This document shows positions 4,831 to 64,000 of a stretch of DNA of 64,000 nt, piece by piece. The translations under genes were made by a program, and so were the position numbers. The DNA comes from Solanum dulcamara. Its lineage: Eukaryota; Streptophyta; Magnoliopsida; Solanales; Solanaceae. Location: the NCBI RefSeq assembly GCF_947179165.1, contig NC_077242.1:51345097-51409096 (forward strand). Direction: 5' to 3'. The notes beneath the pieces were generated by a model, which saw nothing but the letters and a program-made list of their open reading frames with translations, did not search any database and was not told where the DNA came from. The first letter of the stretch is position 1. Each line of letters starts with the position of its first letter.

Positions 4831-5108
4831 TTTCCTCCGTTCATTTTTACTTGTCCAATATACTATTTTGGGATGTTCAATAATATTTTTTTAGTTTATA
4901 AAATTAATAAATAATTTATCATGATGTGTATATTTTATTCTTGTCATTAAATATGACTCATTTTCTAATATTTAAATAATTTATATTTAATAAGAGTGAT
5001 TTGATGAAATTATCCCAACTATTTACTGCTTGTTAATTTTTGTGTAAAGTAAATAATGAAAAACTATTGTTATACACATAAAAAAGTAATTTTAGGAAAG
5101 CGGAGGAA
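4831..5108. mobile_element. Stowaway-like MITE upstream of the NDL gene
   Basis: An AT-rich segment of about 280 bp is bounded by TTTCCTCCGTT on the left and AGCGGAGGAAA on the right. These are imperfect inverted copies of the CTCCCTCCGT-type end of Stowaway (Tc1/mariner) MITEs. The left end is preceded by TA. It has no coding capacity. It lies about 400 bp before the NDL start codon and so is a candidate part of the promoter region. The exact ends are uncertain by a few bases. Confidence 0.55.
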
Positions 5109-24539: not shown

Positions 24540-27477
24540 TGTTATACCTCGTACATTTGTACCTTGGAAGGTTCTTAAGCTTTTTAAGTTTCTTGAAAGG
24601 CTCTTAAGTTTCTTGAAAGGTTCTTATGCTTCTTAGAAGTTACCATGTGATTCAGATAATCTATAACGCTACCAAACAACTCTAAGAAAGAGAGAATGTG
24701 ATACCCCATAGTAGGGAAGATTGGAAATATGGTTATAAGAATCTGGAAGAAATTGGAGGCCAAGTAATGAGTCGTAGGACTCAACTTACATACGTAAGCT
24801 ACCAACTTGAAAATCTTACATTCTTAAGCTACTTGAGTTCATACCAAGCTTATGTAGCAAGAATTACATAGGTTTGTAAAGTAAGACGAGATTACAAACC
24901 CATGAGGAGAAAAAGAAAGTGACACGTGGCAGCAAGAGAGAGTGAAACATGGCAGCAGTTGGAAGAGCCATGTGGCAGTAACTTAATCAGGGGGTGGACC
25001 CCACCTGCCACGTAGATCCCATGAGTGGAGGCTTGATGTGTTGGCCCAATAAGGGCTTGACATGTGTCACCACTTAGGGGTTGACACATATCACCCCCTA
25101 AAGTAGCCTATATATATGTTTTATGAATTTTAGTTCATCTTTATCCTTTAGTCATTCTTATCCAACAAAAGTCTAGAAAAAAAAAGAGAAGAGAAACCTT
25201 GAGCTAGAGAGAGAGAGCGCCACAGATTTAAAGCCAAAAAGGTAAACTCTCTAATTTTGTTCCGTAAATTAATTATCTAGGGTATACCACTAGGGTATGA
25301 AGGTGTTATTAATGTAAATTTATAGTTTGGAGCAGCACCAAAAGGATAACAAATAGCCACAAAGTTTCAGCCGCGCTAGCAGAACTTTCGAGGTGAGTTT
25401 TGGCAAGGTTTGGCAAGGTTTGGTGAGTTTCAGGAAAGGTAAGGTTTTTCCTTTCAAATGGGAGTTTATGATGTTATTATGCAGTATATTATATGTATTA
25501 AATGATGCTGGAAGTGGAAAAATTGTATAAGGATGCTTGATGTTAGAAATAAGCTAGATTAAAGTTATTATAGTCAAATCGGAGTCGAGTAGTGTGTTGT
25601 GATTGTGGTGCTGGGGATGCAGCTGGGTTGATTGTGTGTTGCAGGGATGGAAAGTGTTATAAAATGAGTGTGGTTACTTCTGGTTGTAGCCACATTACCC
25701 TCCATTTCGTATTGTTAAAGGTCTTATGAAATAAAGGTTAAAAACTCTATTTTGGCATCATAGTTTGGAGCTAGTTGTTTGGAGTTGTATTGAGTAATAT
25801 TGAAGTGATTTGATTGTATATATAGCTGCTGGTTGTTGTTGGTAATATGTCTGCTAAGATTAGCAGTTGGATAGGGCAAGTTACAGGGGAAATGCAGCCC
25901 GATTTCCGGTAACTTCGAAACTAGTAATGAACTAGTCGAGGGAAATGGATACTTGGTTGTAGAGTTGGAAATTGGAAGGTGAAAGGTTATTAACCTTAGT
26001 ATTTATTTCATGTTAAATAGGTTCAAAAGACGATGAGGTGAACGTGGTGAAGGGTAATCCATAAGAGGTATGTGAAGCTACCTTCTTTCTCTTGGCATGT
26101 TTTTGGCATAAGTATGTAAAACTACCCTTCTTCTCTCCTGATATGTCTTTGACATAAGTTATGATGTTATGATTAAATATTTATGGTATCGAGTCCCTTG
26201 ATGGGACAAATATGATATATATTACTATATAAGGATCGAGCTGAACGTTCCTCGGCATATGTTACTATCTAAGGATCGGGTCGTACGTTCCTCGACACTT
26301 ATGTATATGACGACTACATGAGGGAAAGTAGAGAGTATGTAAAGCCATCCCTTCTTTATTTTGGCATGTCTTAGAATTAAGTAAGGATTTATATGAGCTT
26401 TGGGGGTAATTCCATTCATAAGTCTTGAGGGTAATTCATGATTCCTGTTCTTAGAGATTCTCCGATAGTTAATGTCCTTGGTTTTTATAAGTTATTTTGT
26501 ATCGTCTTGATTCATGCCTATGATTTCTAAGGCTCTTTTGATATGATTAATAGTGATAATTAAGGGATGATTGATATGACTATCATCCTGATTTTCAAAT
26601 GACAATTCATCTTTATTACTTTAGTAAGTCTTTGACAACGTTTTAAATTGCATATGGTTACTCACTACTCTACTCGTGTATACTATAACCCTTCTTTCAC
26701 CGAGTCTCGATCTGGGTATTTAATCATGCGCAGTTCACTGCATTATCCACCGAGTCCCTCATCAAAGGGACAGGTACGCTATATGAAGGCATGATAATGT
26801 AGTGACATGATCAACTCACCCAGTCCCTCACTAGAGGGCCGGGTATGTATGAATATATATATGTGATGATGATGTGATGTGATGTGATAACGTGGTGATG
26901 GAGCCAAGCCCTATGTTAGTCCTATAGTTTTCATGCATATTTTCATGATCCATAAGGTAAAGGTATAGTGTTCTCTTAAGTAACGAGTTTATCCCCCTGA
27001 CTCTCTCTATTTTAGATATGCTTCCAGTTATGCTTTGTATACTCAGTACATATGTCGTACTGACCCCCCTTTTTCGGGGGTTGCATTTTATGCCCGCAGG
27101 TACAGGTACACACTTTATGGATCCGCTACCGTAGGAGTCCCACTCAATAATTAAGAAGCGCTCTATTATGCCAGAGCCTAGATTTTGATACTAACCCTCG
27201 ATGTATATATTTATATGTTCACGGGTACGGCGGGGGTCCTGTCCCACCTTATGTTACTGTTCTTACTCTTAGAGGTTGGTGGACATGTATGTGGGTTGTA
27301 TATGTATGTGTGTACAGTTGTTCCTATTTGTTACGATGGCCTCGTCGGCTTATATGTTATTGTGCCTTTTGATACATTATAACTCACACAAGGGACAAGT
27401 TTACTTATTGTTAGCAGGGGTATGTACGAGTGTCTAGTTCGGGCACCCGTCATGACCTACGGGATTGGGTTGTGATA
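24540..27477 (+). repeat. 5' LTR of the chromovirus
   Basis: 2938 bp. The start has a cluster of 'cttaagtttcttgaaagg' repeats. A promoter-like TATATATATG lies near 25112, followed by 'agaaacc' and AG-rich sequence. Further on there are degenerate repeats built on GAGTCCCTCA and AGGGCC(G/A)GGTA (26700-26850). Compared with the 3' LTR it lacks about 50 bp near 26925 and keeps about 100 bp near 27170-27260 that the 3' LTR has lost. Confidence 0.95.
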
Positions 27478-27481
27478 AAAG

Positions 27482-27493
27482 TGGTATCAGAGC
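27482..27493 (+). promoter_or_regulatory. Primer binding site (tRNA-iMet type)
   Basis: TGGTATCAGAGC lies four bases after the 5' LTR and matches the complement of the initiator-Met tRNA 3' end, the usual primer of this class. Confidence 0.9.
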
Positions 27494-27681
27494 GGTCCTT
27501 CCTTGGAATGTCCACAGACTGTGTCTAGTAGAGTCTTATTTATCGGTGTATTGTGAACCACATCTATAAACAGGAGGCTACGGGACATTTAGGATGTTAT
27601 CTTTCGTTCTTGTCTTAGATCGTACGACAGATCTATGTTCTTAGGATGACCTTTCACTAACCTACCCTTATGCTTGCAGTA

Positions 27682-28908
27682 ATGCCTTCGAGGAAAGCAA
27701 CAACCGCCCAGAAGGGCAAGTCGGCAGCAGGGGAAACCAGTCAGGCCCTGAGAGTTACTAGGGCTCATGTCCAGCCTATGCTGAGGATTGTGCCTCAGTC
27801 GGCGAGTTCTACTATGCTGCCACTTCTAGAAGAGTTTAGGAAAGCAAATGCAGGTCCTGAAGCTGCAGTACTGGAGCCTCCAGCCCCATAGCAAGGGTAG
27901 AGGATAGAGCTATGAGAGACGTAGTGTAGTTGCTGGCCAAAATGCTGGTAGGACAGGCTCGAAGGCATGGCCTAGATGATGCAAAAAGACAAGACAGCTT
28001 GAGGGTCCGTGACTTCCTAGCCTGCAATCCCCCAAAATTCCATGGGTCAAGACCTACAAAAGATCCACAGGAATTCACCTGGCAGATGCAGCGCACACTG
28101 CGAATCATTAAGGCCTCGGAGACTGAGTCGGTTGAATTAGCTTCATATCGGCTGCGTGATGTGGCCGCTAACTTGTATGAGTCATGGGAATTATTGAGGG
28201 GCAAGGGTTCTCCTCCAGCTGAATAGGATGAGTTCGTAGAAGTCTTTTTTGGACATTTTATGCCTTCAGAAATGAAACGAGCTAGAGTTGATAAATTCTT
28301 ACAGTTGAAACAAAATGGTAGGAGCATTAGAGATTATATCCTTGAGTTTGACTCGTTGGCAAGACATGCACCCATTATTGTGGTTAATATGGCTGATAAG
28401 GTGTATCGTTATGTGATGGGGATAGATCTTACCTGATTGATAGCTGTATGGCCATGGCTTCTCAGCCAGGCATGGATATTGCTTGGGTACAGGCGTATGC
28501 ACAAGGAGTGGAGGATCGGCATAAATGGCGTCAACCCGAGAGAGATTTCGACAAAGGCCAGTATAAAAGAACTAAATCAACTAGTTATTATGGTGGATTT
28601 CGAGGTGGGAAGCCTCAACAACATGGTAGATATCCCTTCCAGCCAGCTCGGAGCGCACCCCTACAGTTTCCAGGTGGAAGATTTGAGAGCACCGGGTATT
28701 TGGGAGCCGGGAAAAGCTCCAGGGTTTTAGGTACACAGGTGAACTTGGGTTCTCGACAATCTAGACCACCGTTGCCCCAGTATCCCTATTGTGGTAGACC
28801 TCATTTTAGAGAATGTCATTGGAATACAGGTGCTTGTTTTTCTTGTGGCCGCCAAGGCCATGTTGCGAGGGAATGTCCACTCAAGGGTACTTCAGGTGGT
28901 GCAGCTTA
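27682..28908 (+). pseudogene. Chromovirus gag remnant
   Basis: An ATG at 27682 opens MPSRKATTAQKGKSA, a basic N-terminus typical of Tekay/Del gag. The capsid-like part follows at 27930-28437 (FLACNPPKFHGSRPTKDPQE, YRLRDVAANLYESW). The nucleocapsid part has two cysteine clusters at 28785-28890 (CGRPHFRECH and CFSCGRQGHVARECP). Stops at 27889, 28226 and 28434 and a frame change near 28445 break it. Confidence 0.9.
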
Positions 28909-29040
28909 GCCAACTGGGTCAGTTGCGGGTTCTTCTTCTTCAGTATCTATGTGCCCTATGAGGCTGGGTATGCATACACCAGCAGGCCATGGCAGAGGCC
29001 GTGGGGGAGCTTCCAGTTCTAGCGGTCCTTCCAACCGCAT

Positions 29041-29552
29041 ATATGCCTTAGCTAGCAGACAGGATCAAAAGTCGTCACCTAACGTGGTTACACGTATATT
29101 ATTAATCTTTTCCCGGGACATGTATGTATTGATAGATCCAAGCTCTACTTATCATATATATCCCCCTTTGTTGGTAGTAGAATTGGAATAAAGCCTGAGT
29201 TAATGGAGTCATTTGAGGTGGCCACACTGGTGGGAGACTCGGTTATAGTAAACCAAATATATAGAAATTATTTGGTAGATGTATGGACTGATTGGCTTCT
29301 TTTCATGACAACGTGGATTGTAGAAATAAAGTGGTTCGGTCCCAGTTCCCAGGTGAACCAATTGTCGAGTGGTTAGGGAATACAACATCGTCGAAGGGTA
29401 AATTCATTTCATACCACAAGGCAAGGAAGATGATTAGAAAGGGGTATATCTATCATCTAGTCCATTTGCATAACCTGGAAGTGGAGGTGCCAACTTTCCA
29501 ATCGATGCTCGTGGTTAATGAATATCCAGATGTGTTCCCAGATGAACTCTAG
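29041..29552 (+). pseudogene. Chromovirus protease remnant
   Basis: The active-site region reads VLIDPSSTYHIY (about 29125). Related elements have D-P-G-S-T, so the Gly next to the catalytic Asp is changed to Ser. A downstream part ends with [12 protein letters not shown] (about 29515-29550), the usual link to RT. Stops lie in between. Confidence 0.8.
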
Positions 29553-30420
29553 GTCTTTCTTTTGAACGGGAGATAGAGTTCACTATAGACGTGTTACCAG
29601 ATACTCAGCCCATCTCTATCCCTCCATATAAAATGGCACCCGCGGAGTTAAAGGAGCTAAAGGAGCAGTTGAAAGAATTGCTGGAAAAGGGCTTCATTAG
29701 GCCCAACACATCACCATGAGGAGCACCAGTACTGTTTATAAAAAGAAAAGATGGGTCGCTGCAAATATGCATCGACTAAAGGCAACTAAATAAGGTAAAA
29801 ATTAAGAACAGATATCCCCTCCCCAGGATTAATAATTTATTTGACCAATTACAGGGTGCTATGTTTTTTGAAGATAGACCTACGGTCGGGATATCATCAG
29901 GTGCAGGTAAGGGAAGCATATATACCGAAGACCGCATTCAGAACCCGATATAGACATTTTGAGTTTAGAGTAATGTCTTTTGGACTGACAAATGCTCCAA
30001 CGGTGTTTATGGATCTGATGAATCGAGTGTTCAAACCATTTCTAGATTTGTTCGTGATTGTATTTATTGATGATATTCTGGTTTATTCACGATCATAAAA
30101 GGATCACATGGATCATTTGTGGGTGGTACTGGGAGTACTCCAAGACCAAAAGTTGTATGCTAAGTTCTCTAAATGTGAATTCTGGCTGGCTTTAGTGGCA
30201 TTCTTGGGGCACGTTATTAGGGCCGATGGTATTCGCATAGACACGAAGAAGATTGAGGTCGTGAAGGCCTAGACAAGACCTACAACCCCTATGGAGGTAC
30301 GTAGTTTTTTGGGGATTGTAGGATACTACAGGAGGTTCATATAAAAGTTTGCTTCCATTTTGGTGCCTTTAACTAGGCTAACTCAAAAGGCAACTAAGTT
30401 CTAGTGGGTTGATGCTTGTG
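29553..30420 (+). pseudogene. Chromovirus reverse transcriptase remnant
   Basis: Segments in order: [58 protein letters not shown] (first catalytic Asp), [17 protein letters not shown], then [14 protein letters not shown] (catalytic F-I-D-D, about 30056) and FLGIVGYYRRFI. Stops at about 29719, 29776, 30096 and 30270 and a frame change near 29865 inactivate it. Confidence 0.92.
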
Positions 30421-31010
30421 AGTGAAGTTTCCAGTTGCTAAAATATAAATTGACTACCGCTCCTATTCTAACCCTTCTTGAAAGACTAAATGGCTATATT
30501 ATTTATTGTGATGCTTTTAGTGTTGGGCTGGGATATGTATTAATGCAATATGGTAGAGTTATAGCTTATGCCTCCCGGCAGCTCAGAAAGCACAAAAGGA
30601 ATTACCCAGCTCATGATTTGGAATTAGCAACGGTGATTCATGCTTTAAAAATATGAAGGCACTACCTGTATGGCGTATATATTGATATCTATACTGACCA
30701 CAAAAGCCTCTAGTACATTTTTAAACAGAAAGAGCTAAATCTACAGCAGAAAAAGTGGCTAGAATTACTGAAGGACTATGATGTTGACATTCTATACCAC
30801 CCAGGGAAAGCAAATGTGGTGGCAGACGCACTCAGCCATAAATCAATTGGTAGCTTAGCAGGTGTACAACCAGAACGAAGGGAGATAATCCATGAGATTT
30901 GCCAATTAGCTAGCCTTAGAGTCCGCTTAGCTGATTCGAATGATGGTGGGGTCTCTGTTCGAGGAGTTGCTGAATCCTCAGTACAAGAACCTTATTCTGA
31001 CATAGTATAG
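30421..31010 (+). pseudogene. Chromovirus RNase H remnant
   Basis: [32 protein letters not shown] and DIYTDHKSL carry the three acidic catalytic positions. [15 protein letters not shown] (about 30800) marks its end. A TGA at 30654 and a TAG at 30711 break it. Confidence 0.9.
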
Positions 31011-31087
31011 GGATGTAGCTCTCCAGAAGTAAAATACACCATTCGAGATCACACCTGGCAGGGTACCATGATATAGAGGCAGAGTAT

Positions 31088-31600
31088 ATGTGCCAGAAGT
31101 TGCAGGGCTACGACAGTAAGTACTGGGAGAGGCACACCATGCCCATTAGTCTTCCTACATCTATTATCTCCGATAGGAGAGCTCAGTTCACAACCAAATT
31201 TTGGAGATCATTCCAAGAAGGCTTGGGAATGCAGGTGAATCTTAGTACAGTATTTCATCCTCAGACTAACGGATAGGCCGAGCATACTATTCAAATGCTA
31301 GAAGATATGTTGCGCTCCTGTATTATTGATTTCAGAGGTAGCTGGGATGATTATTTACCACTTATTGAGTTTGCCTATAATAATAGCTAACTCCAGCATC
31401 CAGATGGCACCGTATGAGGCTTTATATGGCAGGAAGTACAGATCCCCTATTGGGCTGTTTGATGTTGGCAAAACTTGACTAATAGGCTTGGCATGGTCCA
31501 ACAAGCTATGGATAAGGTGAAGCTTATTTAGGAAAGATTATTAGCTTCTCGGAGTTGGCAAAAGTCATATGTAGACAATCGATGTTGAACTTTAGAATTT
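31088..31600 (+). pseudogene. Chromovirus integrase, N-terminal part deleted
   Basis: It begins with MCQKLQGYDSKYWERHTMPI and continues SDRRAQFTTKFWRSFQEGLG (second catalytic Asp) and [16 protein letters not shown] (the Glu region). The zinc-binding HHCC domain and the stretch with the first catalytic Asp, normally about 150-200 codons between RNase H and this point, are missing. Stops at about 31274 and 31388 follow. Confidence 0.85.
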
Positions 31601-31799
31601 TAAGTAAGTGACTAGGTGTTCTTGAAGGTGTCGCCCATGAAAGGAGTAATAAGGTTTGGACAGAAAGGGAAGCTGAGTCCTAGATATATTAGTCCTTAAC
31701 AGATCCTTCGCCGAATAGGTAAGGTTGCCAATGAACTAGACTTACCGGCGGATCTGGAAACAGATATCCAGTCTTCCATTTATCAATGCTTTGCAAGTG

Positions 31800-32045
31800 C
31801 ATTGGTGATCCATCCCGAGTATATCCCATAGAGATATCCAGGTCACAGAGGAGTTATCTTATGAAGAGCAACTTATCGCCATCCTGGATCGGCAGATTAG
31901 AATATTGAGGACTAAGGATGTAGCTTCTATCAAAGTGCAGTGGCAAAATGAGAATCGCGAAGAAATGACCTGGGAAGCTGAAGAGGAAATAAAACACAAG
32001 TATCCGTACCTATTCCCTACGTCCAAAGGTAATCCCAACTTCTGA
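31800..32045 (+). pseudogene. Chromodomain at the pol C-terminus
   Basis: Segments EELSYEEQLIAILDRQIRIL and KVQWQNENREEMTWEAEEEI match the chromodomain fold region of Tekay/Del elements (the aromatic W in VQW and the W in MTWE). It is followed by KYPYLFP and a stop. Chromodomains are thought to guide integration to heterochromatin. The end of this segment is also what survives in the non-autonomous element at 62675-62760. Confidence 0.85.
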
Positions 32046-32165
32046 ACTCTTATATTGGTTACGTGATTAAAGTATATGTGTTATTGCAATAGATATTTTT
32101 TTTCTTGTAATCTGTATAAGATCTTGAGGAAGGTTTTTGGTTCACATTCGAGGATGAATATTATA

Positions 32166-32178
32166 AAGGGGGGAAGTA
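32166..32178 (+). promoter_or_regulatory. Polypurine tract of the chromovirus
   Basis: AAAGGGGGGAAGT precedes the 3' LTR. Confidence 0.85.
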
Positions 32179-35056
32179 TGTTATACCCCATACATTTGTA
32201 CCTTGGAAGGTTCTTAAGCTTCTTAAGTTTCTTGAAAGGCTCTTAAGTTTCTTGAAAGGTTCTTAAGATTCTTAGAAGTTACCATGTGAGCCAGATAATC
32301 TATAACACTACCAAACAACTCTAAGAAAGGGAGAATGTGACACCCCATAGTAGGGAAGATTGGAAATATGGTTATAAGAATCCGAAAGAAGTTGGAGGCC
32401 AAGTAATGAGTCATAGGACTTAACTTACTTACGTAAGCTACCAACTTGAAAATTTTACATTCTTAAGCTACTTGAGTTCATACCAAGCTTACATAGCGAG
32501 GATTACATAGGTTCGTAAAGTAAGACGAGATTATGAACCCATGAAGAGGAAAAGAAAGTGACATGTGGTAGAAAGAGAGAGTGACACATGGCAGCAGCTG
32601 AATCAAGGTGGGAGGGTGGACCCCACCGGCCATGTGGTAGCCCATGAGTGAAGGCTTGATGTGTTGGCCCAATAAGGGCTTGACACGTGTCACCACTTAG
32701 GGGTTGAAACATGTCACCCCTAAAGTAGCCTCTATATATATGTTTTATGACTTTTAGTTCATATTTATCCTTTAGTCATTCTTATCCAAGAAAATTCTAG
32801 AAAAAAAAGAGAAGAGAAGAGAAACGTTGAGCTAGAGAGAGAGAGCCACTGATTTGGAGCAAAAAAGGTAAGCTCTCCAATTTCGTTCCATGAATGAATT
32901 ATCTAGGTTAAACCAAGAGGGTATGAAGGTGTTTTTAATGTAAATTTATGGTTTGTAGCATCACCAAAAGGATAACAAACAGCCACGAAGTTTCAGCCGT
33001 GCTAGGAGAACTTTCGAGGCGAGTTTTGGCAAGTTTTGGCGAGTTTCGGGCAAGGTAAGGTTTTCCCTTTCAAATTGGAGTTTATGATATTGTTATAAAG
33101 TATATTACATGTCTTAAATGAGGCTGTAAGTGGAAAAATTATATAAGGATGCTTGATGTTAAAAATAACTAAATTGAAGTTGTTATAGTCAAATCGGAGT
33201 CGAGTAGTGTGTTGTGATTGTGGTGCTGCGGCTGTAGCTAGGTTGATTGTGTTTTGAAGGTATGGAAAGTTTTATAAAAGGGGTTTGGTTACTTCTGGTT
33301 GTAGCCACATGACCCTCCATTTCGTATTGTGAAAGGTCTTACGAAATAAAGGTTAAAAACTCTATTTTGGCATCGTAGTTTGGAGCTAGTTGTTTGGAGT
33401 TGTATTGAGTAATGTTGAAGTGATTTGATTATATATATAGCTTCTAGTTTTTGTTGGTAATATGGATTCTAAGATTACCAGTTGGATAGGGCAAGTTACA
33501 GAGGAGATGCTGCCCGATTTCCGGTAACTTCGGAAATAGTAATGAACTAGTCGAGGGAAATGGATACTTGGTTGTAGAGTTGGAAATTGGAAAGTGAAAG
33601 GTTATTAAACTTAGTATTGATTTCATGTTAAATAGTTTCAAAATATGATGAGGTGAACGTGGTGAAGGGTAATCCATAAGAGGTATGTGAAGCTACCTTC
33701 TTTCTCTTGGCATGTTTTTGGCATAAGTATGTAAAGCTACCCTTCTTCTCTCCTGATATGTCTTTGACATAAGTTATGATGTTATGATTAAATATTTATG
33801 GTATCAAGTCCCTTGATGGGACAAATATGATATATATTACTATATAAGGATCGGGCTGAACGTTCCTCGGCATATGTTACTATCTAAGGATTGGGTCGTA
33901 CGTTCCTCGACACTTATGTATATGACGACTACATGAGGGAAAGTAGAGAGTATGTAAAGCCATCCCTTCTTTATTTTGGCATGTCTTAGAATTAAGTAAG
34001 GATTTATATGAGCTTTGGGGGTAATTCCATTCATAAGTCTCGAGGGTAATTCATGATTCCTGTTCTTAGAGATTCTCTGATAGTTAATGTCCTTGGCTTT
34101 TATAAGTTATTTTGTACCGTCTTGATTCATACCTATGATTTCTAAGGCTCTTTTGATATGATCAATAGTGATAATTGAGGGATGATTGATATGACTATCG
34201 TCCTGATTTTCAAATGACAATTCATCTTTATTACATCAGTAAGTCTTTGACAACGTTTTAAATTGCATATGGTTACTCACAACTCTACTCGTGTATACTA
34301 TAACCCTTCTTTTATAGAGTCCCGGGACGGGTATATAATCATGCATAGTTTACTGCATTATCCACTGAGTCCCTCATCAAAGGGCCAGGTACGCTATATG
34401 AAGGCATGATAATGTAGTGACATGATCAACTCACCCAGTCCCTCACTAGAGGGCCAGGTATGTATGAATTTATATATGTGATGATGATGTGATGTGATGT
34501 GATAACGTGGTGATAACGCCGAGCTCTATGTTAGTCCTACAGTTATGATTTACCGAGTCCCTGAAAGGTCCGGCTATATTGTATAATATGAGCATGCATA
34601 TTTTTATGATCCACAAGGTACAGGTACAGTGTTCTCTTAAGTAACGTGTTTATCTCCCTTACTCTCTCTATTTCTAATATGCTTCCAGTTATGCTTTGTA
34701 TACTTAGTACATATGTCGTACTGACCCCCCTTTCTCGAAGAGCTGCATTTCATGCCCATAGATACAGGTACACACTTTGGGGATCTGCCAGCATAGGAGT
34801 CCCACTCAGTAATTAAGAAGTGCTCCCTTATATTATTGTTCTTACTCTTAGAGGTCGGTGAACATGTATGTGGGTTGTATATGTATGTGTGTATAGTTGT
34901 TCCTATATGTTATGATAGCCTCATTGGCTTATATATTATCGTGCCTGTTGATACATTATAGCTCAAACAGGGGACAAGTTTACTTATAGTTAGCAGGGGT
35001 ATATGCGAGTGTCCAGTTTGGGCACCCGTCACGGCCTACGGGGTTAGGTCGTGACA
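32179..35056 (+). repeat. 3' LTR of the chromovirus
   Basis: 2878 bp, TGTTATACCCC to GGTCGTGACA. It contains about 50 bp near 34545-34600 that are missing from the 5' LTR. It lacks about 100 bp between 'aagaagtgctc' and 'tgttcttactct' (around 34825) that the 5' LTR keeps. Confidence 0.95.
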
Positions 35057-36726
35057 ATATATAATGAATTAAATATATGAGAAGCATGTAAGAACAATGA
35101 TAATAGAACATAAATAATATGACCATAAGATGCATGACCAGTATCTTGAAAAATAAGTAAAACTTGAACACATTTAAATATCATAATCATATGGTCAATA
35201 TATCATAAACATCATGAAGACGTATGCCATTACATATACCTTTGTGGGGTAGGACCTTTAACCGACATATAAGACCATATGAGCTATAACATGAAATCTA
35301 ATGTAACTCTCACATTGAGAAGAGAGAGGCTACTTTCCAAAGTAGACTCTATGAGAACATCTTAAGCTTGAGCTATTTGTGGATCCACTAGCTAAGACAT
35401 AAAGGCAAACCTACGCAGACAACATAGTTAGGGACTAGAAGTTGCTACTAGGGTTCCCTTGGGTCATTTTTTTGAGCTTCTGGACCGAACACCACCTCAA
35501 AGTCCTCTCGATGCTTATTCAACATCCCAACGAAAGTGTTGTAAAAAACATAGTCATTAACATCACTAGGAAAATTAATAATAGATACCAATCCAACATC
35601 ATAAAATAATTGTAAAAGTAGCTCATTAACATAGTTGATTCATACAAGAGTGAGAAAACCTTTCAATCCTTATGAATCCGTGAGTCAGTGAAAAAAACTT
35701 TCACTTCTTTAACATGAATGTGTAAGAAACCTTTCACAGCCATATATACTTTCTTGAATATAATTGAAAACATCATTCTTTACTTATCATGAGTCATTCA
35801 TAAGTCCTTGATAACCATTCATACTTGAAAGTAGTATAATGCATGGTCCATGATAATCAATTGAAATCATGTAATTGAAACTTGTATCAAACATAATTTA
35901 ATCAATGATAATAAAATAAACCATAATTGGATTGACCTAATGCAAGTTCATAAGAATTAGGGCTATAAGATAATTATAGAAGAAGAATTTGAAAGAAAAG
36001 CCTTTAGGACTCCATTGATAAATTCCCACATACCTTGAACAATTAAATCCCTAAATGCACTTGAATTGGAGACTTGAACTTAGGATTCCTTGAAACCTTG
36101 CTTGAGGAAGAAGATGAGCTTTGGGAGAATTTCTAGAGAGAAAATTTATGTTTAAGGTGAATTAGGAGTGAATGATGGGCTTAGAAGGGTTTGGGGGCAG
36201 TTAATATAATATGATTTATACCCAAAACCATTCAAATACATTAATGAACTAATAGGAAAAAGACCAAAACACCCTTCCTGAAACACTAGCAGGACCATCT
36301 TCATGGGCTGTCAACCTCTCCACGGTCCGTGAAGAGGGTCGTGGATTGGAGGGGGAAAAATTGCCTTGAGGGATCGACTTCTATTGTTGGCCTCACCGCT
36401 TTTCTAGGGGACCACGGTTCCTGGACTGTTCTATGAAGTGGGCAGTGACTTGGGTTGTTAAAGATTTTCCTACACAGACCCCTTTAAAACCCGTGAAGTG
36501 GGCGGTGACTAGGTTCCATAATATGTGGAACTCTCTATGAGCCGTAGAGCCTTTCGTGAGCCTCCCTCCTTTTTCTCCCTTGACTAGTGCACTACCACAA
36601 TGGCCTTCCACGGCCGTGGTCATTTACACAGCCCTTAAAGGGCTTTGTGAAGGGCCAAACTATTTTTTGAGATCCTCTTTTAAACTCTATTTTCTAACTT
36701 TCCAACTTCCGGGGTCTTACACCTAC

Positions 36727-42351: not shown

Positions 42352-43772
42352 TGTCACGACCCAAGCCTAGGGCCTAGATGTGATAGGGAGAATGAGGAAC
42401 CCGAAAGTTTCTCAAACAAGCCTTTTAGCATTCTTTTAGCCTTTCATCGGTAATAAAAATAAATAAACAAGCAAAAATCATAATAGTAAATCTTGAACTT
42501 ACATATGTTCAATAATACCTCTAACTTTTAGATTTAATGGAGCTAAGACAAGTACGTAGCTCACCCTCAATCATAATAGAAAAAATGCCATAGTAAGTGT
42601 CTAACAATCTCAACATATCATAAGCTAGAAAGGTAAAAGAGTATTGTTCTCGGAACATGGGAACTCACCAAACGTAGTCTTTAAATAAAATCTCAAATAG
42701 CCACGTTGAGGAGGACGAGGAGGAGCACCGATCCCTACATGGTAATATCATGTAGGCAAAAGAGTATGCATTAGTACTTTGATTGTATTAAGTATGTAAG
42801 CATGCATGAACATTGATAAAATATTAAAACATTTATGTAATAAGAAACATAATGCAATGCATGCATAATCAATCATATAGATATCCTTTAAAACATTCAT
42901 TTTGTGGGAAAATGACCTTAACCAACATTTAAGATCATTCGACCTATTACATGAAATCAACCATAACCCCCTACGTTGGCCAGGGAGACTACTTGCCGGA
43001 TAGAACTCCGTCAACTTCATTCATTTCTTTAACGTTAACTTTAAGGGTTTTCATGGATCCATTAGCCTAAGCCTACAAGGGCTCCTATGTTGGCACATAG
43101 TTAATGAGACAAAGGGTTGCTACTAGGATTTCCTTACCGAATCCCACCTCAATGACTCATTCGGTGCTAAGTCAATCCCACAGAATAGTTTAATACTTCA
43201 AAATAGTCATAGCATATAACTCGAGAATTCAAAACATCATATTCGGTAGAATAGCTCATTAAAATATTTGGTGATTCAAATATGCAAGAATTATCCGTAT
43301 AGCATAAAGAATCTATCATTCATAGCATTTTATCATTTTTTTATTTTATAAGACTCCTTTTTGATCATAGACATTGCTGTCATAAACATTCATTTAGAGT
43401 CAAAGCTTTCAAGTCAAACTTTATTGAAAACATAGTAAAACTATGTGGGTTCAAATCACTTCAACTTGCAAACATGTATGTAAATAAATATGCATAAATA
43501 CTTTGAAATTCATTAATTAAAAATCATGCTTTAAACAACCCACCATGAATTTTAAGAATCTTTAAAGAGATAAATAGAGAAATTACTTGAAACCATCAAT
43601 TCATACATATGAAATCATGTTTCATTAGAATAGACCAATAATTATTAGGTTAACCATGATTCATTCTATTAAGTAAAAATAATAATTACCCATAAGAAAA
43701 TATTACTTGAAATCAAGAAATTTAGTTGAAAGAGTGTGAGAATACATGGGTTGAAGAACCCATGGATAAACA

Positions 43773-45197
43773 CCCACATAACTTAGAGTAAAGCTTAAAG
43801 AAAATAAATATAATTTATCATATAATCAAAATACTTTAGGCATGAGAGTGGAAGAAATACTCTCATTGAAGCCTTATATACGCTAATGTAAGATAGGTAA
43901 TTAAACTTCAAATACTTAACAATCTATGCATTTAGAATCAAGATATGAAAACCCATAAAGTTTCATACTTGAATTAAATAGAAGAATTTGATAATTCATT
44001 TGGGCTTCATGGATGAAAGAATCTATGAATCAATACCCACATACCTTAGAGTAAAGCTTAAAGAAAATAAACATTATTTATCATATAATTAAAATACTTT
44101 AGGCATGAGAGTGGAAGAAATACTCTCATTGAAGCCTTACATACTCTAATATAAGATAGGTAATTAAACTTCAAATATTTAATAATATATGCATTTAGAA
44201 TCATGATATAAAAACCCATAAAGTTTTATACTTGAATTAAATAGAAGACTTTGATAATTCATTTGGGCTTCATGGATGAAAAGATCCATGAATCAATACC
44301 CACATACCTTAGAGTAAAGCTTAAAGAAAGAAAATACATAATTTATCATATAATCAAAATACTTTAGGCATGAGAATGGAAAGAATACTCTCATTGAAGC
44401 CTTACATACGCTAATGTAAGATAGGCAATTAAACTTCAAATACTTAATAATCTATGCATTTAGAATCATGATATGAAAAGCCATAAAGTTTCATGCTTGA
44501 ATTAAATAGAAGACTTTGATAATTAATTTAGGCTTCATGGATGAAAGGATCTATGAATCAATACCACATACCTTAGAGTAAATTTTAAAGAAAATAAATA
44601 TAATTTATCATATAATCAAAATAATTTAGGTATGAGAGTAGAAGGAATACTCTCATTGAAGCCTTACATACGGTGATATAAATTAGGTAATTAAACTTTA
44701 AATACTTAATAATCTATACATTTGGAATCATGATATAAAAACCAATAAAGTTTGATACTTGAATTAAATAGAAGACTTTGTTAATTCATTTGGACTTCAT
44801 GGATGAAAGGATCCATGAATTAATACCACATACCTTAGAGTAAATTTTAAAGAAAATAAACATAATTTATCATATAATCAAAATAATTTAGGCATGAAAG
44901 TGGAAGAAATACTCTCATTGAAGCCTTATATATGGTGATATAAGATAGGTAATTAAACTTCAAATACTTAATAATCTATACATTTGGAATCATCATATGA
45001 AAATCCATGAAGTTTCATACTTGAATTAAATAGAAGACTTTGATAATTCATTTGGGCTTCATGGATGAAAGGATCCATGAATCAATATCCACATACCTTA
45101 GATTAAAACTTAAAGAAAATAAACATAATTTATCATATAATCAAAATACTTTACGCATGAGAGTGGAAGAAATACTCTCATTGAAGCCTTACATACC
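43773..45197. repeat. Tandem array, about 263-bp unit, 5.4 copies
   Basis: The phrase '(c)ccacataccttagagtaaa' recurs at 43773, 44036, 44299, 44563, 44825 and 45088, a steady period of 262-264 bp. Each unit also has 'gcatgagagtggaag', 'actctcattgaagcctta' and 'tcatggatgaaa'. Units differ by scattered changes. The last is partial (about 109 bp). The related LTR at 1-1508 has this phrase once. Confidence 0.95.
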
Positions 45198-58074: not shown

Positions 58075-58566
58075 TGTAAGACCCTAGAAGTTGAAAAGTT
58101 TAAATGAGGGAAGATTTTAAGAAAATTTGATTGTCCTCAAGTCTACGACTTAAACTACGAGTCGTAGGCAGCCCTACAAATCAAAGAAGTGACTCATAGG
58201 GTTAGTATTGAAGAAGGAAGAGTGTTTAAGTCTGAGGGGAAGTCTAAGAGTCAAGTTGATGACTCGTAATATTGAGTCGTAGAGGAACTTTAGAGACTAA
58301 GGAAATATCAGGTTTGTAGGTTTTAGAGGTTGCAAGATGAATGGGGTTTATGATTGGTAGACCTAATGACGAGTATAAGCATGACTCGCAGGTGAAGATA
58401 TGAAACTCAGAATCTTATGGTTTTCTCAGATCCTGTATGATGAATCAAGTCTACGATTCGTAGACCTTATTACGACTCATAGAAGTGAGATCGTGGAGTC
58501 TTCCAATGGAATTAATGAGGGGAATTGTGGTCATTTCCTAATTTTGGTTCAATGAATCTAGACACT
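58075..58566 (+). mobile_element. 5' piece of a family-B LTR
   Basis: It starts TGTAAGACCCTAGAAGTTG like the LTRs at 38152 and 36721 (reverse). It contains repeated CTACGA/TCGTAG words (58140-58500). It is cut at 58566 by the next element; the rest would lie beyond the window. Confidence 0.7.
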
Positions 58567-61501
58567 TGTTACACTCCATACTTTGGTACCTTGGAACGCT
58601 TCTTAAGTTTCTTAAGTTTCTAGAAAGTCTCTTAAGTTTCTTAGAAGTCGTCATGTGAGTTGGATAATCTACCACACTATCAAATAACCCTAAGGAAAGG
58701 AAAATTAGATACCCCATAATAAGGAAGATTGGAAATAGGGTTATAAGAATCCGGAAGGAGTTGGAGGCCAAGTAATGAGTCGTAGGACCCGATCTACTTG
58801 CGTAAGCTACCAACTTAAAAGTCTTACATACTTAATCTACTGGAGTACATTTTGAGCTTCCATATCTAGGATTTCATAGGCTCTTAAAGTAAGACGAGAT
58901 TATGAACCCACGGAAGAGACGGAAGGAGGTGTAGCATCTACTCGGAAGCAAGCAGGTGATGCACCTACTCGGAAGCAAGAAGGTGATGCACCTACTTAGA
59001 AGAAAGCAGGTGATGCACCTACTTGGACTAAGTAGGTGATACACCTACTTAAGGTGGGTCCCACACTGCCACATGGCAGCTTTTGATTGGATGCATGATT
59101 GAGGTGGCGCCCTAGGGGGCTGCCATGTGTCACCCCTAGGGAATGCCATGTGTCACCTCCTAAGAAGGAGATATATGTATGTTATGCTTAAGAATATCTC
59201 ATTTTCAGCTTCCTTAGCCAAAAAAGAGAGAAAAACGTGAGAGAGGAAGAGGCAGCCACGGCTTGGAGGAAAACAAGGTAAGCCCTCTGATTTCATTCCA
59301 TGAATTAATTATTGAAAGTATCCTAAGGTGATGTAGCGGTGTTCAATAACGTTAAATTTCACTTTGGGGCAGCAAGGAAGATATACAAACAGTCCGCTAA
59401 TTTTCAGCATGTTAAGAGAACTTTCGAGATAAGTTTTAGCAAGGTGTTGTGCTTGTGGTGTGCTGCTGTAGGTGTGTGGTGGTGTGTTTTAGGGCCTAAA
59501 AGTATTGTAAAATAGGTGTGGGGGATGCTTTTTGCAGCCACACGACCCCTCATTTCATATAATTAACCGTTTTGCGAAATAAAGACTAGAAACCCTATTT
59601 TGGTATCGTAATTTTCAGCAAGTTGTTTGGAGCTTATGATGTGTAATGTTGCCATGTTGTTTTTGTATATGAGATGCAGGTTGTTGTAGTTGGTTGGCTG
59701 TAGTGATTAGGGATCTAATTGGAAATTCGTATAGGGCATGTTATAGGGGAGGTGCTGCCCGATTTTCGTTAACTCCTTAACTAGCTAAAGAACTAGTCAA
59801 AAAGACGAGCGAGGAAATGCATTCTATGAATACTCGTGTGCAACTTAAGATGCTTAAAAGTCAGGGATGGTTGATATTCATATTACTTTCATGTTAAATA
59901 GGTTCAAGAGACGACGAGGCGAACATATTAAGAGTAATCCGTAAGAGGTATGTAAAGCTAACATTTCGTTCTTTTGGCATAAGTATTTAAATCTTACTCC
60001 TTATCTTGGCATGTTTTGACATAAGTATGAAAATCTAGTCTTTATTTTGGAATGGAAGCAAATATATGAATTTTATATGGTTCCAAGGGAGTTCCTATTC
60101 CTAGAGCCACTAGGATGGCCAATTTCGTGATTTCCCAAAAGACATTGTATTATGCTATGATACGAGTATATAATTCCAGAAGTTCTATTTTGATGTAATC
60201 AATAGTGACTTTAAAAAGGTACTTGATATGAATCTTGTCTTGATTTTGAACGATAGCTCATTTTAATTATTCCATTTGACTTATCTTGAGTAGAATTCCA
60301 AGGAAACTTTTTGCTACGCTTCCAAATATTAAATGACTGTTATTTTAATTAGTCCACTGAGCCCCAAAATATATTTTGAAATATGTAAACGATTTCAGAA
60401 AGACTATTTTGACATGGACCATCGGTACATCTGAAAGACATACACTATGATTATTACTCAATTTCTCTTATATGACTTGTCATCGGAGTTATGCTCTCGA
60501 GTCTCTAGAAATGTCTTGTATTTTAAATTGTATATAGTTTCTCACTACTCCACTCGTGGATGCCTCAATGCTTCCTTCGCTGAGCCTGGGCCAAGATTTG
60601 TTATCATACATACTTCTCTGTATTGTTCGTCCGTGCCTTGATGTGAGGGGGCAGGTACGACCTGTATATGGGATTTGTGGAGTTATGATATACCATGTAC
60701 ACATATGATATGATATGATCTGATATAACCATCAGATATTATATGATCTTTTACGAAGATATTCCCTACTTGGGAGTTATGATATGCTGTGGCACCGGTG
60801 ATGGGGCGGCGACCACAATTTATTCACCGAGTTCCATAATGGGGCTAGATATGGCATATACTTTTCTACACACCTTATCTGTGGTTATGATCATCATTTT
60901 GATATTTCTGGATACTTTGTTTATTTTTGCACATTCTGCTCTAGTAATGACTTTACTTATTATAGTCTATGCTCTACATACTCGATACATTTTCCGTACT
61001 GACCCCCTTTCTTTGAGGGGCTACGTTTCATGCCCGCAACCACAGATGTTTATTTTGGAGATCCTCTAGCTTAGGATTTTTGCTCAGCTATGTTGGAAGG
61101 GCTCCACTATTCTGGAGCCTAGCTCTTGGTGCTGGTTATTTGATGTCGCCATTTGTTTATTCAGGGGTACGGCGGGGGATCTGTCTGACCATATGTTATC
61201 GTTCATAACTCTTAGAGGTCTATAGACATGTGTATGTGGGTTGTTTATAAGTTCATTTTAGCTATGCCTATATGTCGTATTATAAATGTTTTTATATTAC
61301 AGCAGCAATGTCATCTTGCGTGCCCTTTCTTGATATAGTACGAATGAAAGGGGCTACATGTACCTAAAAAAGTTTTGACCTATTGGGGTTTTTGTGTATA
61401 GTATCACATCACACACAGTTCAACTTGACTATAGCTGATAGATACGTATACAGGGGTCCAGGTGGAACCCCAGTCGCGGCCTACGGGGTTGGGTCGTGAC
61501 A
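58567..61501 (+). repeat. 5' LTR of the non-autonomous element
   Basis: It runs TGTTACACTCC to GGTCGTGACA. It has the same order as the chromovirus LTR ('cttaagtttct' cluster, 'gtaccttggaa', 'gagtcgtaggac') but is clearly diverged. Confidence 0.9.
58925..59050. repeat. LTR minisatellite, four palindromic units
   Basis: The unit is about 30 bp, built on the palindrome GTAGGTGATGCACCTAC with spacer CTTGGAAGCAAGCA or similar. It occurs four times here and three times in the 3' LTR (63250-63345). Confidence 0.9.
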
Positions 61502-62580
61502 TAAGTGGTATCAGAGTAGTTCATCCTTAGAGTGTCTATAGACCGTGTCTAGTAGAGTCTTATTTATCGGACATTTTGGATGTTACCTTTCTTTCATATC
61601 TAAGATCATGAGATAGAGCCTAGTCATAGGGAATGAAATTCCTCATACTAACTTGTGATTTCAGTAGAAGGACAACATTGATAGAAGAAAGTAACTGACG
61701 ATATTGGAGGTTATAGGGCATGCAGGTAAGCAAAAGCACGAAAGATATATCTAAGGTGAGGTATTGAAGTACGATTGACATATAAAGTTAAAAATGGAAA
61801 GGAAAAGTAGACAGGGCAGGGTAACAGGTGCAGTTTGAGTTGGGCATATGAGGTAAGTCTATCATTTTTACTGTTGTTGGTATTGGGCGCCCTGTGTGGC
61901 TGCGGTATGATACAATATGAATATATATGTTGGACTTGTGAGGCATTGTTGGCATTTTGTATGTGTAGGTGTTGAGATAGTAAGAAATGCAGAGGAAACT
62001 CTGCCCAAAGTTTTCTAGAAATAAAAAGAGAATGAGATATAGGATTGTAATATATCTTGAAAGGTCAATACTCGTATGGTAAAACAAAGTTGGAAATGAC
62101 TTGTGATCCTAAGAAGATGATTTAGAGATGACACCTAGATCTGGATAGAATGACATATTAAGGAACCAACTGAGTTGATATACTGGGATAAACGGTGATG
62201 AGCTAATTACTGATTGGAATGAATGCAATATGACATTAAATGCACTGCTACATTAAGGATATTACTCGAGTACCAGTGTTCAAGACTGGAGTTGGTACTA
62301 TATATTGAGGATTCGAAGCACCTCATGATTTTATTAAGGTTTCTATAGGGTTAACCTAAAGTATAGGTGATGTAAATGAAGATATGGAAATAGCGCAGTA
62401 TACTAAATAGGTTGGAAAGGAAGCATATGCATTTGGAAAGTTAGAAATAAAAAGACAATGACATAGATACACCCTAAAGTGGGAAGTGGACAGGAGAAGT
62501 ACAAGAGTAAGAGAAAATCAAATGACGCTATCATATGTAAATAGGAATGCTTAAACTTCAAACGAGATCCCATAAGGGAT
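61502..62580 (+). other. Internal non-coding domain of the non-autonomous element
   Basis: The primer site TGGTATCAGAG lies at 61506-61516. The next about 110 bp ('gtgtctatagaccgtgtctag...') match the leader of the chromovirus. From about 61670 to 62580 no frame shows gag or pol similarity and the origin is unknown. Confidence 0.7.
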
Positions 62581-62682
62581 GGATGTGATCGTACCAGCAC
62601 TAATGCATCGGATTCCATCAGAACTCCAAAGTTAAGTGTGCTTGGTCAAAGAGTAGTACTAGGATGGGTGACCCTCTGGGAA
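62581..62682 (+). ncRNA. 5S rRNA-derived segment (about 102 of ~119 nt), decayed
   Basis: From GGATGTGATCGTACCAGCAC through ACTCCAAAGTTAAGTGTGCT and AGTAGTACTAGGATGGGTGA to CTGGGAAG it follows plant 5S rRNA in order without a large gap. It includes the A box, intermediate element and C box of the internal Pol III promoter, each with changes. The differences are mostly C-to-T or G-to-A at sites that are CpG in 5S (for example GATGCGATC to GATGTGATC, AAGCGTG to AAGTGTG, TCCGAA to TCCAAA), plus one inserted base. The last about 17 nt are missing and the sequence passes directly into the chromodomain remnant. This is not a working 5S gene. Confidence 0.93.
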
Positions 62683-62760
62683 GCATAAGAGGAAATGAAA
62701 AACAAGTATCCGTACCTATTTCCTACGTCTACAAGTAATCCTAACCTTTGGAACTCTGAT
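62675..62760 (+). pseudogene. Chromodomain C-terminal remnant fused to the 5S segment
   Basis: CTGGGAAGCATAAGAGGAAA followed by 'caagtatccgtacctatt' matches the chromovirus at 31970-32025 (coding WEAEEEI...KYPYLFP). The first eight bases CTGGGAAG are also part of 5S rRNA, so the joint cannot be placed exactly. Confidence 0.85.
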
Positions 62761-62872
62761 ATTGATTATTCGATGAAAGTATATATTATGGCAATGGGAT
62801 AGAGGACCTCTCCATATAGTCGGTATGAGATCCGTAGGAAGGTTTTGGTTCACATTAGAAGACGAATGTGTT

Positions 62873-62886
62873 AAAGGGGGAAAGGA
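62873..62886 (+). promoter_or_regulatory. Polypurine tract of the non-autonomous element
   Basis: AAAGGGGGAAAGGA lies directly before the TGTTACACC of the 3' LTR. Confidence 0.85.
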
Positions 62887-64000
62887 TGTTACACCCCATA
62901 CTTTAGTACCTTGAAACGCGTCTTAAGCTTCTTAAGTTTCTGGGAAGGCTCTTAAGTTTCTTAGAAGTCGTCATGTGAGTTGGATAATCTACCAAGCTAT
63001 CAAATAACCCTAAGGAAAGGAAAATGAGATACCCCATAATAAGAAAGATTGAAAATAGGGTTATAAGAATCTAGAAGGAGTTGGAGGCCAAGTAATAAGT
63101 CGTAGGACTCGATCTACTTGCGTAAGCTACCAACTTGGACTTCTTACATACTTAATCTACTGGAGTACATGTTGAGCTTCCGTAGCAAGGATTTCATAGG
63201 ATCTTAAAGTAAGATGAGATTATGAACCCAAGGAAGAGACGGAAGGAGGCGTAGAACCTACTCAAAAGCAAGTAGGTGATGCACCTACTTGGACCAAGTA
63301 GGTGATGCACCTACTTGGACCAAGTAGGTGACACACCTACTTAAGTTGGGTCCCATGCTGCCACGTGGCAGCTTTGGATTGGATGCATGATTGAGGTGAC
63401 ACCCACTGACATATGTCATCCCTAGGGGATTCCATATGTCACCTCCTAAGAAGGTGTATATATGTATGTTATGTTGAAGAATATCTCATTTTTAGCTTTC
63501 TTAGCCAAAAAAAAGAGAGAAAAATGTGAGAGAGAAAGAGGGCAGGCACAGCTTGGAGGAAAACAAGGTAAGACCTCCGATTCTGTTCCATGAATTAATT
63601 ATTTAAGGTATCCTACGGTGATATAACGGTGTTTAATAATGCTAAATTTCACTTTGGGGCAGCAAGGAAGAGATACAAACAGTCCGCTAATTTTCAACAT
63701 GTTAAGAGAACTTCCAAGATAAGTTTTAGCAAGTTTTAGCAAGGTGTTGTGTTTGTGGTGTGCTACTGTAGGTGTGTGGTGGTGTATTACAGGGCCTAAA
63801 AGTATTCTAAAAGAGGTGTAGGGGATACTGATTGCAACCACACGACCCTTCATTTCGTATAATTAATGATTTTGCAAAATAAAGACTAGAAACCCTATTT
63901 TGGTATCATAATTTTTAGCAAGTTGTTTGGAGTTTATGTTGTGTATTGTTGCCATATTTTATTTGTATATGAGATGCAGGTTGTTATTGTTGATTGTTAG
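62887..64000 (+). repeat. 3' LTR of the non-autonomous element, cut by the window end
   Basis: It matches the first about 1.1 kb of the 5' LTR, including the minisatellite with three units (63250-63345), the TATATATGTATG stretch (63456) and the 'gagagagaaagagggcagg' block. Confidence 0.92.

Follow-up and report, generated by a model that had tools for sequence, protein, structure and literature searches.

A 5S rRNA segment in the internal domain of a non-autonomous Tekay/Del-like retrotransposon family of Solanum dulcamara

The 5S-bearing element in the window

A segment resembling 5S rRNA lies inside an LTR retrotransposon in the 64,000-nucleotide stretch of Solanum dulcamara DNA analysed here (the window; C6:51345097-51409096), which raises the question of whether it is a chance insertion in one copy or the trait of a mobile family, and of how it came to be there. 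The first-pass annotation had described it as nearly full and as lying in the internal domain. An Rfam cmscan of the full 64 kb returned a single match at the gathering score, RF00001 5S rRNA at 62584-62701 on the forward strand (score 56.6 bits, gathering threshold 38; E 3.5e-9). Aligned to a host 5S gene (L075), nt 1-102 correspond to 62581-62683 with 89% identity over 103 positions, the window copy holding one base more than the host. The host gene is 119 nt long and its 3'-terminal 17 nt are absent from the captured piece, so the description as nearly full is apt. The extent first proposed, 62581..62682, was confirmed and reaches 62683, although the last residues overlap a chromodomain remnant that runs into the 3' UTR.

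All parts of the element lie on the forward strand. The 5' LTR (TG...CA; 2.9 kb, 58567..61501) follows a 5' target site duplication, ACACT (58562..58566), whose twin stands after the 3' LTR, beyond the window. The 3' LTR occupies 62887..64000 and continues past the window's end as far as the equivalent of 65746; LTR-LTR K2P is 0.102. The element measures about 7.2 kb in all, and its 5-bp target duplication is perfect. The internal domain opens with the primer binding site (PBS) TGGTATCAGAG at 61506, which we take to be of the initiator-Met tRNA type, and the 5' leader (61502..61666), homologous to the window's gag-pol relative up to the gag start. A non-coding segment that replaces gag-pol follows (61667..62574), common to a sister lineage, here lineage B, up to GATCCCATA. 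Six extra bases, AGGGAT (62575..62580), stand between this element homology and 5S nt 1; then come the 5S (62581..62683), whose last 9 nt (5S nt 94-102) are microhomology with the chromodomain, the remainder of the chromodomain C-terminus with the 3' UTR (62684..62870; homologous to the window relative) and the polypurine tract (PPT; 62871..62886). The 5S is thus located between PBS and PPT, in the internal domain and not in an LTR, as had been claimed. A PPT-like G-rich run at 62476-62486, within the non-coding core and near the left edge of a block shared among subfamilies, may act as a central PPT or mark a site of strand transfer.

The relative that served as our yardstick is a related full-structure element without 5S on the same strand (24540..35057; LTR 24540-27478, internal part 27479-32178, LTR 32179-35057), whose internal part holds a gag zinc knuckle, reverse transcriptase, integrase (a weak match) and a chromodomain motif. 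The two elements have in common the LTR end, PBS and leader to the gag start (61481-61666), and also the chromodomain end, 3' UTR and PPT (62669-62890). What separates these shared ends in the 5S element is 0.9 kb of non-coding sequence followed by the 5S. Three tested ORFs of its core gave no Pfam match, and the longest stop-to-stop ORF there is 117 aa. Degraded gag/pol found no support as the source of 61667-62580 when compared with the relative, the best local alignment to its gag-pol scoring 30 against 29-37 for 10 shuffles. The loss of gag and pol noted in the first pass therefore stands for the window copy, which has the core without coding capacity of a LARD, but not for two other 5S-bearing copies. 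In these (L017 4233-4949, L019 4020-4948), a gag/protease-region fragment lies directly before the shared non-coding segment, and they are possible intermediates. The relative has alignable counterparts of the leader, the PPT and the chromodomain C-terminal remnant, as expected of Tekay/Del. Judged by its sequence, the window copy is a member of a large non-autonomous LARD-like group, probably of the Tekay/Del chromovirus (Ty3) lineage.

Repeats of other kinds were also seen in the window. At 63269-63346 in the LTR, a 26-nt palindromic unit is repeated three times head-to-tail, giving long inverted repeats. Self-comparison of the window revealed a tandem array at 43745-45196 (unit about 263 bp, copies about 90% alike), with partial diverged relatives of the unit at 39334-39498 and 528-645.

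Copies across the genome and mobility after capture

We searched the source assembly (942,432,443 bases, 32 contigs). The query 62500-62760 gave at least 40 matches, and the 39 listed ones elsewhere in the genome had 89-91% identity. A 5S-free bait (61690-62560) also gave at least 40; among the 40 listed and examined (34 + 6, window copy included), the 5S was present in 39 (33 of 34 and 6 of 6), and L059, the sole listed copy without a visible 5S, stops before the join. A 34-letter pattern over the 5S-chromodomain join was found at 599 places with up to 3 mismatches (273 + 326), and its reversed control at none genome-wide. Given decay of about 9-10% per copy, 599 should be a lower bound. Viral contigs scanned for the junction yielded no match.

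Sampling by other parts of the element gave further counts. All 20 sampled places of a chromodomain tail pattern carried the 5S; in 19 it spans nt 1 or 2 to 102, and in the remaining one it starts at nt 53. These were drawn, at 0-1 mismatch, from about 100 listed of 802 places; the count of 802 itself was set aside because the 5S-less relative in the window matches the pattern with 3 mismatches (by eye). With a query on the backbone of subfamily A3 (L016:4000-4790), the 5S was present in all eight sampled of the 30 matches reaching the query end. Nine A3-backbone matches leave the query at 669-672, and the six of these sampled had no 5S in the next 250 bp. The 5S is a family trait, with copies in the hundreds, and the genome-wide copies with a shared join rule out a one-off insertion confined to the window. 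We also looked for the pattern that would mark such an insertion, namely 5S-free copies of this very element together with a 5S bracketed here by a duplication of its own, and did not find it.

Some places hold more than one unit. In L027 (2729-7476), two 5S internal domains, both complete, stand about 4.4 kb from each other and are separated by LTR sequence, an arrangement like a tandem retroelement array. L107 carries a pair of unlike internal domains with 5S in a span of 3.6 kb, at 1437 and at 5040 in reverse-complement coordinates. Inside the latter stretch, L090 has a nearly canonical 5S, identical to the host at 99 of 102 positions and the least decayed of the sampled copies; this suggests that younger family members exist. 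The stretch read around it contains two 5S units and no complete LTR pair for dating.

The search for further copies with the same junctions and target duplications, proposed in the first-pass annotation and run in the source genome, found both. Of eight copies inspected, four have target duplications at differing sites (two perfect, two at 4/5); in the other four, an element end was not located. Together with the 599 join matches and the 39 of 40 listed copies, these duplications support the earlier suggestion of a gypsy family that was mobile after the capture. LTR-LTR K2P was 0.067-0.112 in eight copies, some with partial LTRs. With assumed rates of 1.3e-8 and 7e-9 per site per year, this divergence corresponds to about 2.6-8 My. 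Among copies chosen with a 5S query, 5S divergence (median 0.094) resembles that of LTR pairs; between copies chosen by backbone, the 5S differs by 0.139-0.168, above the LTR pairs. This excess probably reflects rapid decay through C>T/G>A changes in a methylated stretch rich in CpG. Such changes account for 259 of the 371 seen in 39 copies (103 positions, nt 103 included), the pattern expected of methylated DNA decay.

Donor, joins and spread of the captured 5S

Among the 39 copies picked by upstream sequence, the majority base agrees with the host 5S gene throughout nt 1-102 (102/102); the two part at nt 103, where chromodomain sequence begins. At nt 24 and 93, where the host departs from what we take to be the usual plant 5S, the majority follows the host. 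By subfamily, the majority 5S differs from the host at two positions in A3 (8 copies) and at one in A5 (5 copies). On this sequence evidence, the donor is the host's own 5S, whose array lies on C7 near 63.75-64.28 Mb in 341-bp units; with the majority matching the host throughout, a TFIIIA 5S-like exon or Cassandra is an unlikely donor. A stray dispersed 5S (L076, G000:C6:35274099-35274217) is host-like from about nt 5 with another upstream flank, and lies outside the 5S-bearing element family.

What stands at this place in elements without 5S can be read from lineage B. L017 holds a 5S-less relative beside a 5S copy, and a query on its junction region gave at least 40 matches including itself. 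In all 12 of the listed loci that were read, the shared non-coding segment gives way to another sequence, X, and in nine X is followed by integrase within the stretch examined. None of these 12 loci gave an Rfam 5S match, against all eight of those examined from the 5S lineage. The sister element was followed to chromodomain and PPT in L017 only. At the place of the 5S, lineage B thus has about 2 kb of other sequence, X plus integrase. As integrase followed by chromodomain is the order of the coding relative, we take lineage B as the older state; with its extra 2 kb it would represent an ancestral type of arrangement, not a vacant insertion site. The 5S would accordingly have replaced about 2 kb of X and integrase.

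The two joins differ in kind. At the 3' join, the chromodomain codons contain the 9-nt word CCTGGGAAG, which is also 5S nt 94-102. At the 5' join, lineage B homology stops at GATCCCATA, and AGGGAT and then 5S nt 1 follow. The six bases are absent from lineage B, and the host 5S spacer shares no more than GAT with them; capture of 5S spacer finds no support past these three bases. Neither join shows a visible flanking duplication or poly-A.

A shared word at the 3' join and a 5S beginning at +1 point to a single capture by template switching onto 5S RNA, followed by amplification and later by transfer of the module, and we consider this sequence of events probable. Entry into 5S RNA at the shared word and run-off at its 5' end with a few extra bases is the simplest account. 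The ancestral RNA would have been of the lineage B type (leader, non-coding segment, X, integrase, chromodomain, PPT). Synthesis of the minus strand would have begun at the 3' end, reached the chromodomain codons and, at CCTGGGAAG, jumped to a 5S rRNA template that had presumably been packaged, reading it from nt 102 through to the 5' terminus. A few bases may have been added or re-copied at run-off before the return to element RNA some 2 kb further upstream, which would have deleted X and integrase. Because PBS, PPT and LTRs were retained, Tekay-type proteins, supplied by a putative autonomous helper, could have mobilised the product in trans and so amplified it. Later switches between co-packaged element RNAs would then have put the 5S-bearing 3' module on other backbones. 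This account joins observations made here (family status, junctions, a 5S-less sister state, insertion with target duplications and conflicting groupings) to an RNA donor, 5S packaging, a helper and a direction of change that we infer. AGGGAT weighs against it and is explained only in part; given the GAT in the host spacer, the donor possibly began slightly upstream of 5S nt 1. The higher divergence of the 5S than of LTR pairs in backbone-chosen copies also counts against it.

The main rival is capture at the DNA level, with a 5S rDNA fragment used as filler in double-strand break repair, loss of about 2 kb and later amplification. Microhomology and extra bases both occur in end joining, and repair with such a filler would leave microhomology too, matching the microhomology at one junction and the extra bases at the other; the genome also has a 5S array, and the three bases before 5S nt 1 match its spacer. 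What argues against repair is the boundary at 5S +1, with at most three shared bases beyond it, though a donor in 341-bp units could break anywhere, and the sense orientation of the 5S, as expected of an RNA template. We regard repair as improbable. Far less credible is an inserted 5S-derived SINE, a piece of a Cassandra LTR or a 5S-like TFIIIA exon. The TFIIIA gene does contain a 5S-like exon. Mobile or dispersed 5S-like sequences also exist, SINE3 and Cassandra among those described in the available parts of the sources (PMC10886601, PMC10853983). Against all three stands the identity of the majority to the host gene over nt 1-102, the joins without visible flanking duplication or poly-A and the coincidence of the insert with the absence of X and integrase. 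SINE3 would bring its own target duplication and a LINE 3' tail; no duplication surrounds the 5S here, and lineage B has X and integrase at this place. Cassandra is further set apart, by description, in that its core of about 70 bp sits in the LTR (PMC10853983).

Twenty copies (L020 dropped) were grouped by the sequence 300-45 bases upstream of the 5S into four groups, A1 to A4; L020 was likewise omitted from profile and distance comparisons, and L014 from the profile reference set. From about 62490 to 62910, net divergence between groups is near 0, with no difference beyond the decay inside each group; upstream, it is 0.2-0.4. At 62230-62460, A2 is 0.21 from lineage B and 0.35, 0.48 and 0.31 from A1, A3 and A4; at 62470-62570, the A groups agree (0.07-0.10) and all are 0.25-0.27 from lineage B. 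Because the copies were chosen with query 62500-62760, low divergence within that stretch is biased. The left step of the profile (62461-62490) is close to the query start, and the low values extend 150 bp to the right of the query. The control set was picked by backbone alone and comprised 8 copies of A3 and 33 of A2, of which 32 could be used for the 39 bases preceding the join. Over these 39 bases, A3-A2 divergence was 0.077 (0.077 within A3, 0.103 within A2), with A3-B at 0.205 and A2-B at 0.221; in the 5S itself, A3-A2 was 0.153 versus 0.168 within A3 and 0.139 within A2. The backbone-only copies thus repeat the discordance, which for A2 and A3, the groups covered by this check, is not due to the choice of copies. 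Since backbone and 5S block group differently, recombination appears to have carried the 5S-bearing 3' module from one backbone to another. Such recombination is visible in L014, and at 5 of the 20 sampled tail-pattern places the 5' flank was of a fifth type.

The block from 5S to PPT might instead be alike through selection, on a Pol III promoter, an RNA structure or a ligand for a 5S-binding protein, and not through recombination. The near-zero divergence between subfamilies across 62490-62910 (against 0.2-0.4 upstream) would fit this, as would the majority 5S of other groups, only one or two positions off the host, and the lower divergence of box C at C/G sites (0.101 versus 0.152 for the rest). 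Over all sites, however, boxes A, IE and C diverge like the rest, and L014 is visibly recombinant; selection alone also leaves unexplained why the upstream part of the block is 0.21-0.27 from lineage B while the A2 upstream core is nearer to it. We think selection in place of recombination unlikely.

Possible roles and relation to known elements

The first-pass annotation suggested that the 5S could once have served as an internal promoter or in packaging or localisation. Boxes A, IE and C are all intact in the majority 5S. Over all sites in 39 copies, box A diverges by 0.075, IE by 0.108 and C by 0.087 versus 0.087 elsewhere, so the boxes are kept no better than other 5S positions and conservation of the Pol III boxes was rejected; at C/G sites, the values are 0.147, 0.156 and 0.101 versus 0.152, with box C alone lower. 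The TATA-like stretch of the host 5S spacer is absent from the captured piece. A T4 run lies at about +261, in the 3' UTR, in 20 of 21 copies, and says little since the 5S-less relative also has a T run there. On these sequence data, a role in promotion, packaging or localisation is unproven and speculative. Most likely the 5S is a hitch-hiking scar, and a benefit to the element is possible. A tentative and rather doubtful proposal is that the 5S raised the fitness of the 3' module, through 5S-binding proteins, packaging or a strand-transfer hot spot, and that this explains its spread; if true, a fitter module would account for one 5S module on at least four, perhaps five, backbones in hundreds of copies.

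Nothing of this kind was known to the first-pass annotation from any gypsy or chromovirus derivative, and among the hits listed from the largely open-access literature that we searched there was neither a 5S in a gypsy internal domain nor such a capture, which is not proof of absence. In the available parts of the sources, the closest likeness is to Cassandra TRIMs and the nemertean Ajax, which are also non-autonomous LTR elements with a 5S that includes the internal Pol III promoter (PMC10853983, PMC7215508, PMC10886601). Cassandra, however, carries a 5S core of about 70 bp in its LTRs, at the middle of each, in an element of about 600-900 bp (PMC10853983, PMC7215508). Here the 5S is single and lies between PBS and PPT in the window and internally in the other mapped copies, and the element is Tekay/Del-like, without gag/pol but of about 7.2 kb with 2.9-kb LTRs, well outside TRIM size. 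Helenus and Ajax are described as TRIMs carrying small-RNA sequence in their LTRs (PMC10886601), and a survey of other TRIM families did not find 5S, as far as its available text goes (PMC4717578). LARDs and non-autonomous Tekay/Del elements share with this family the protein-less core, PBS, PPT and presumed trans-mobilisation (PMC7215508); unlike them, the core here has a host 5S rRNA and a scrap of chromodomain, with modules exchanged between backbones.

Capture of host RNA by retroelements has precedents. LINE-1 chimeras with 5S rRNA or U6 RNA also fuse a small Pol III RNA to a retroelement, template switching being one proposed route, but they are separate insertions at the LINE-1 5' end, typically with a truncated 5S in antisense orientation (PMC13174262); the 5S described here lies inside the element in sense orientation and belongs to a mobile family. 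Retroviruses and LTR elements have taken up host sequence, as with oncogenes and Bs1, in retroviruses by RNA template switching (PMC4997597), and Bs1 is reported to have captured exons only (PMC4717578); in this family, by contrast, the captured RNA is ribosomal and the copies number in hundreds. For MLV particles, 5S rRNA has been reported and template switching onto host RNA described (PMC4997597), and template switching is also described for plant LTR elements (PMC1950507). Direct evidence of plant Ty3 elements packaging 5S RNA was not found in the literature searched. Tekay is named the most successful LTR lineage in the tomato clade (PMC13310191), and the amounts of Tekay and 5S rDNA in pepper are treated in an account whose available text does not mention 5S inside elements (PMC7076952).

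One practical consequence is that searches or probes for dispersed 5S in such genomes will catch hundreds of retrotransposon copies. The family provides a natural record of an LTR retrotransposon that took in host rRNA sequence and stayed mobile, with the 5S gene and the 5S-less sister element surviving in the same genome as the 5S-bearing copies. To Cassandra-type LTRs and 5S SINEs it adds a further route by which 5S enters mobile DNA, and the internal placement of its 5S is a possible model for the origin of 5S-bearing LTR elements.
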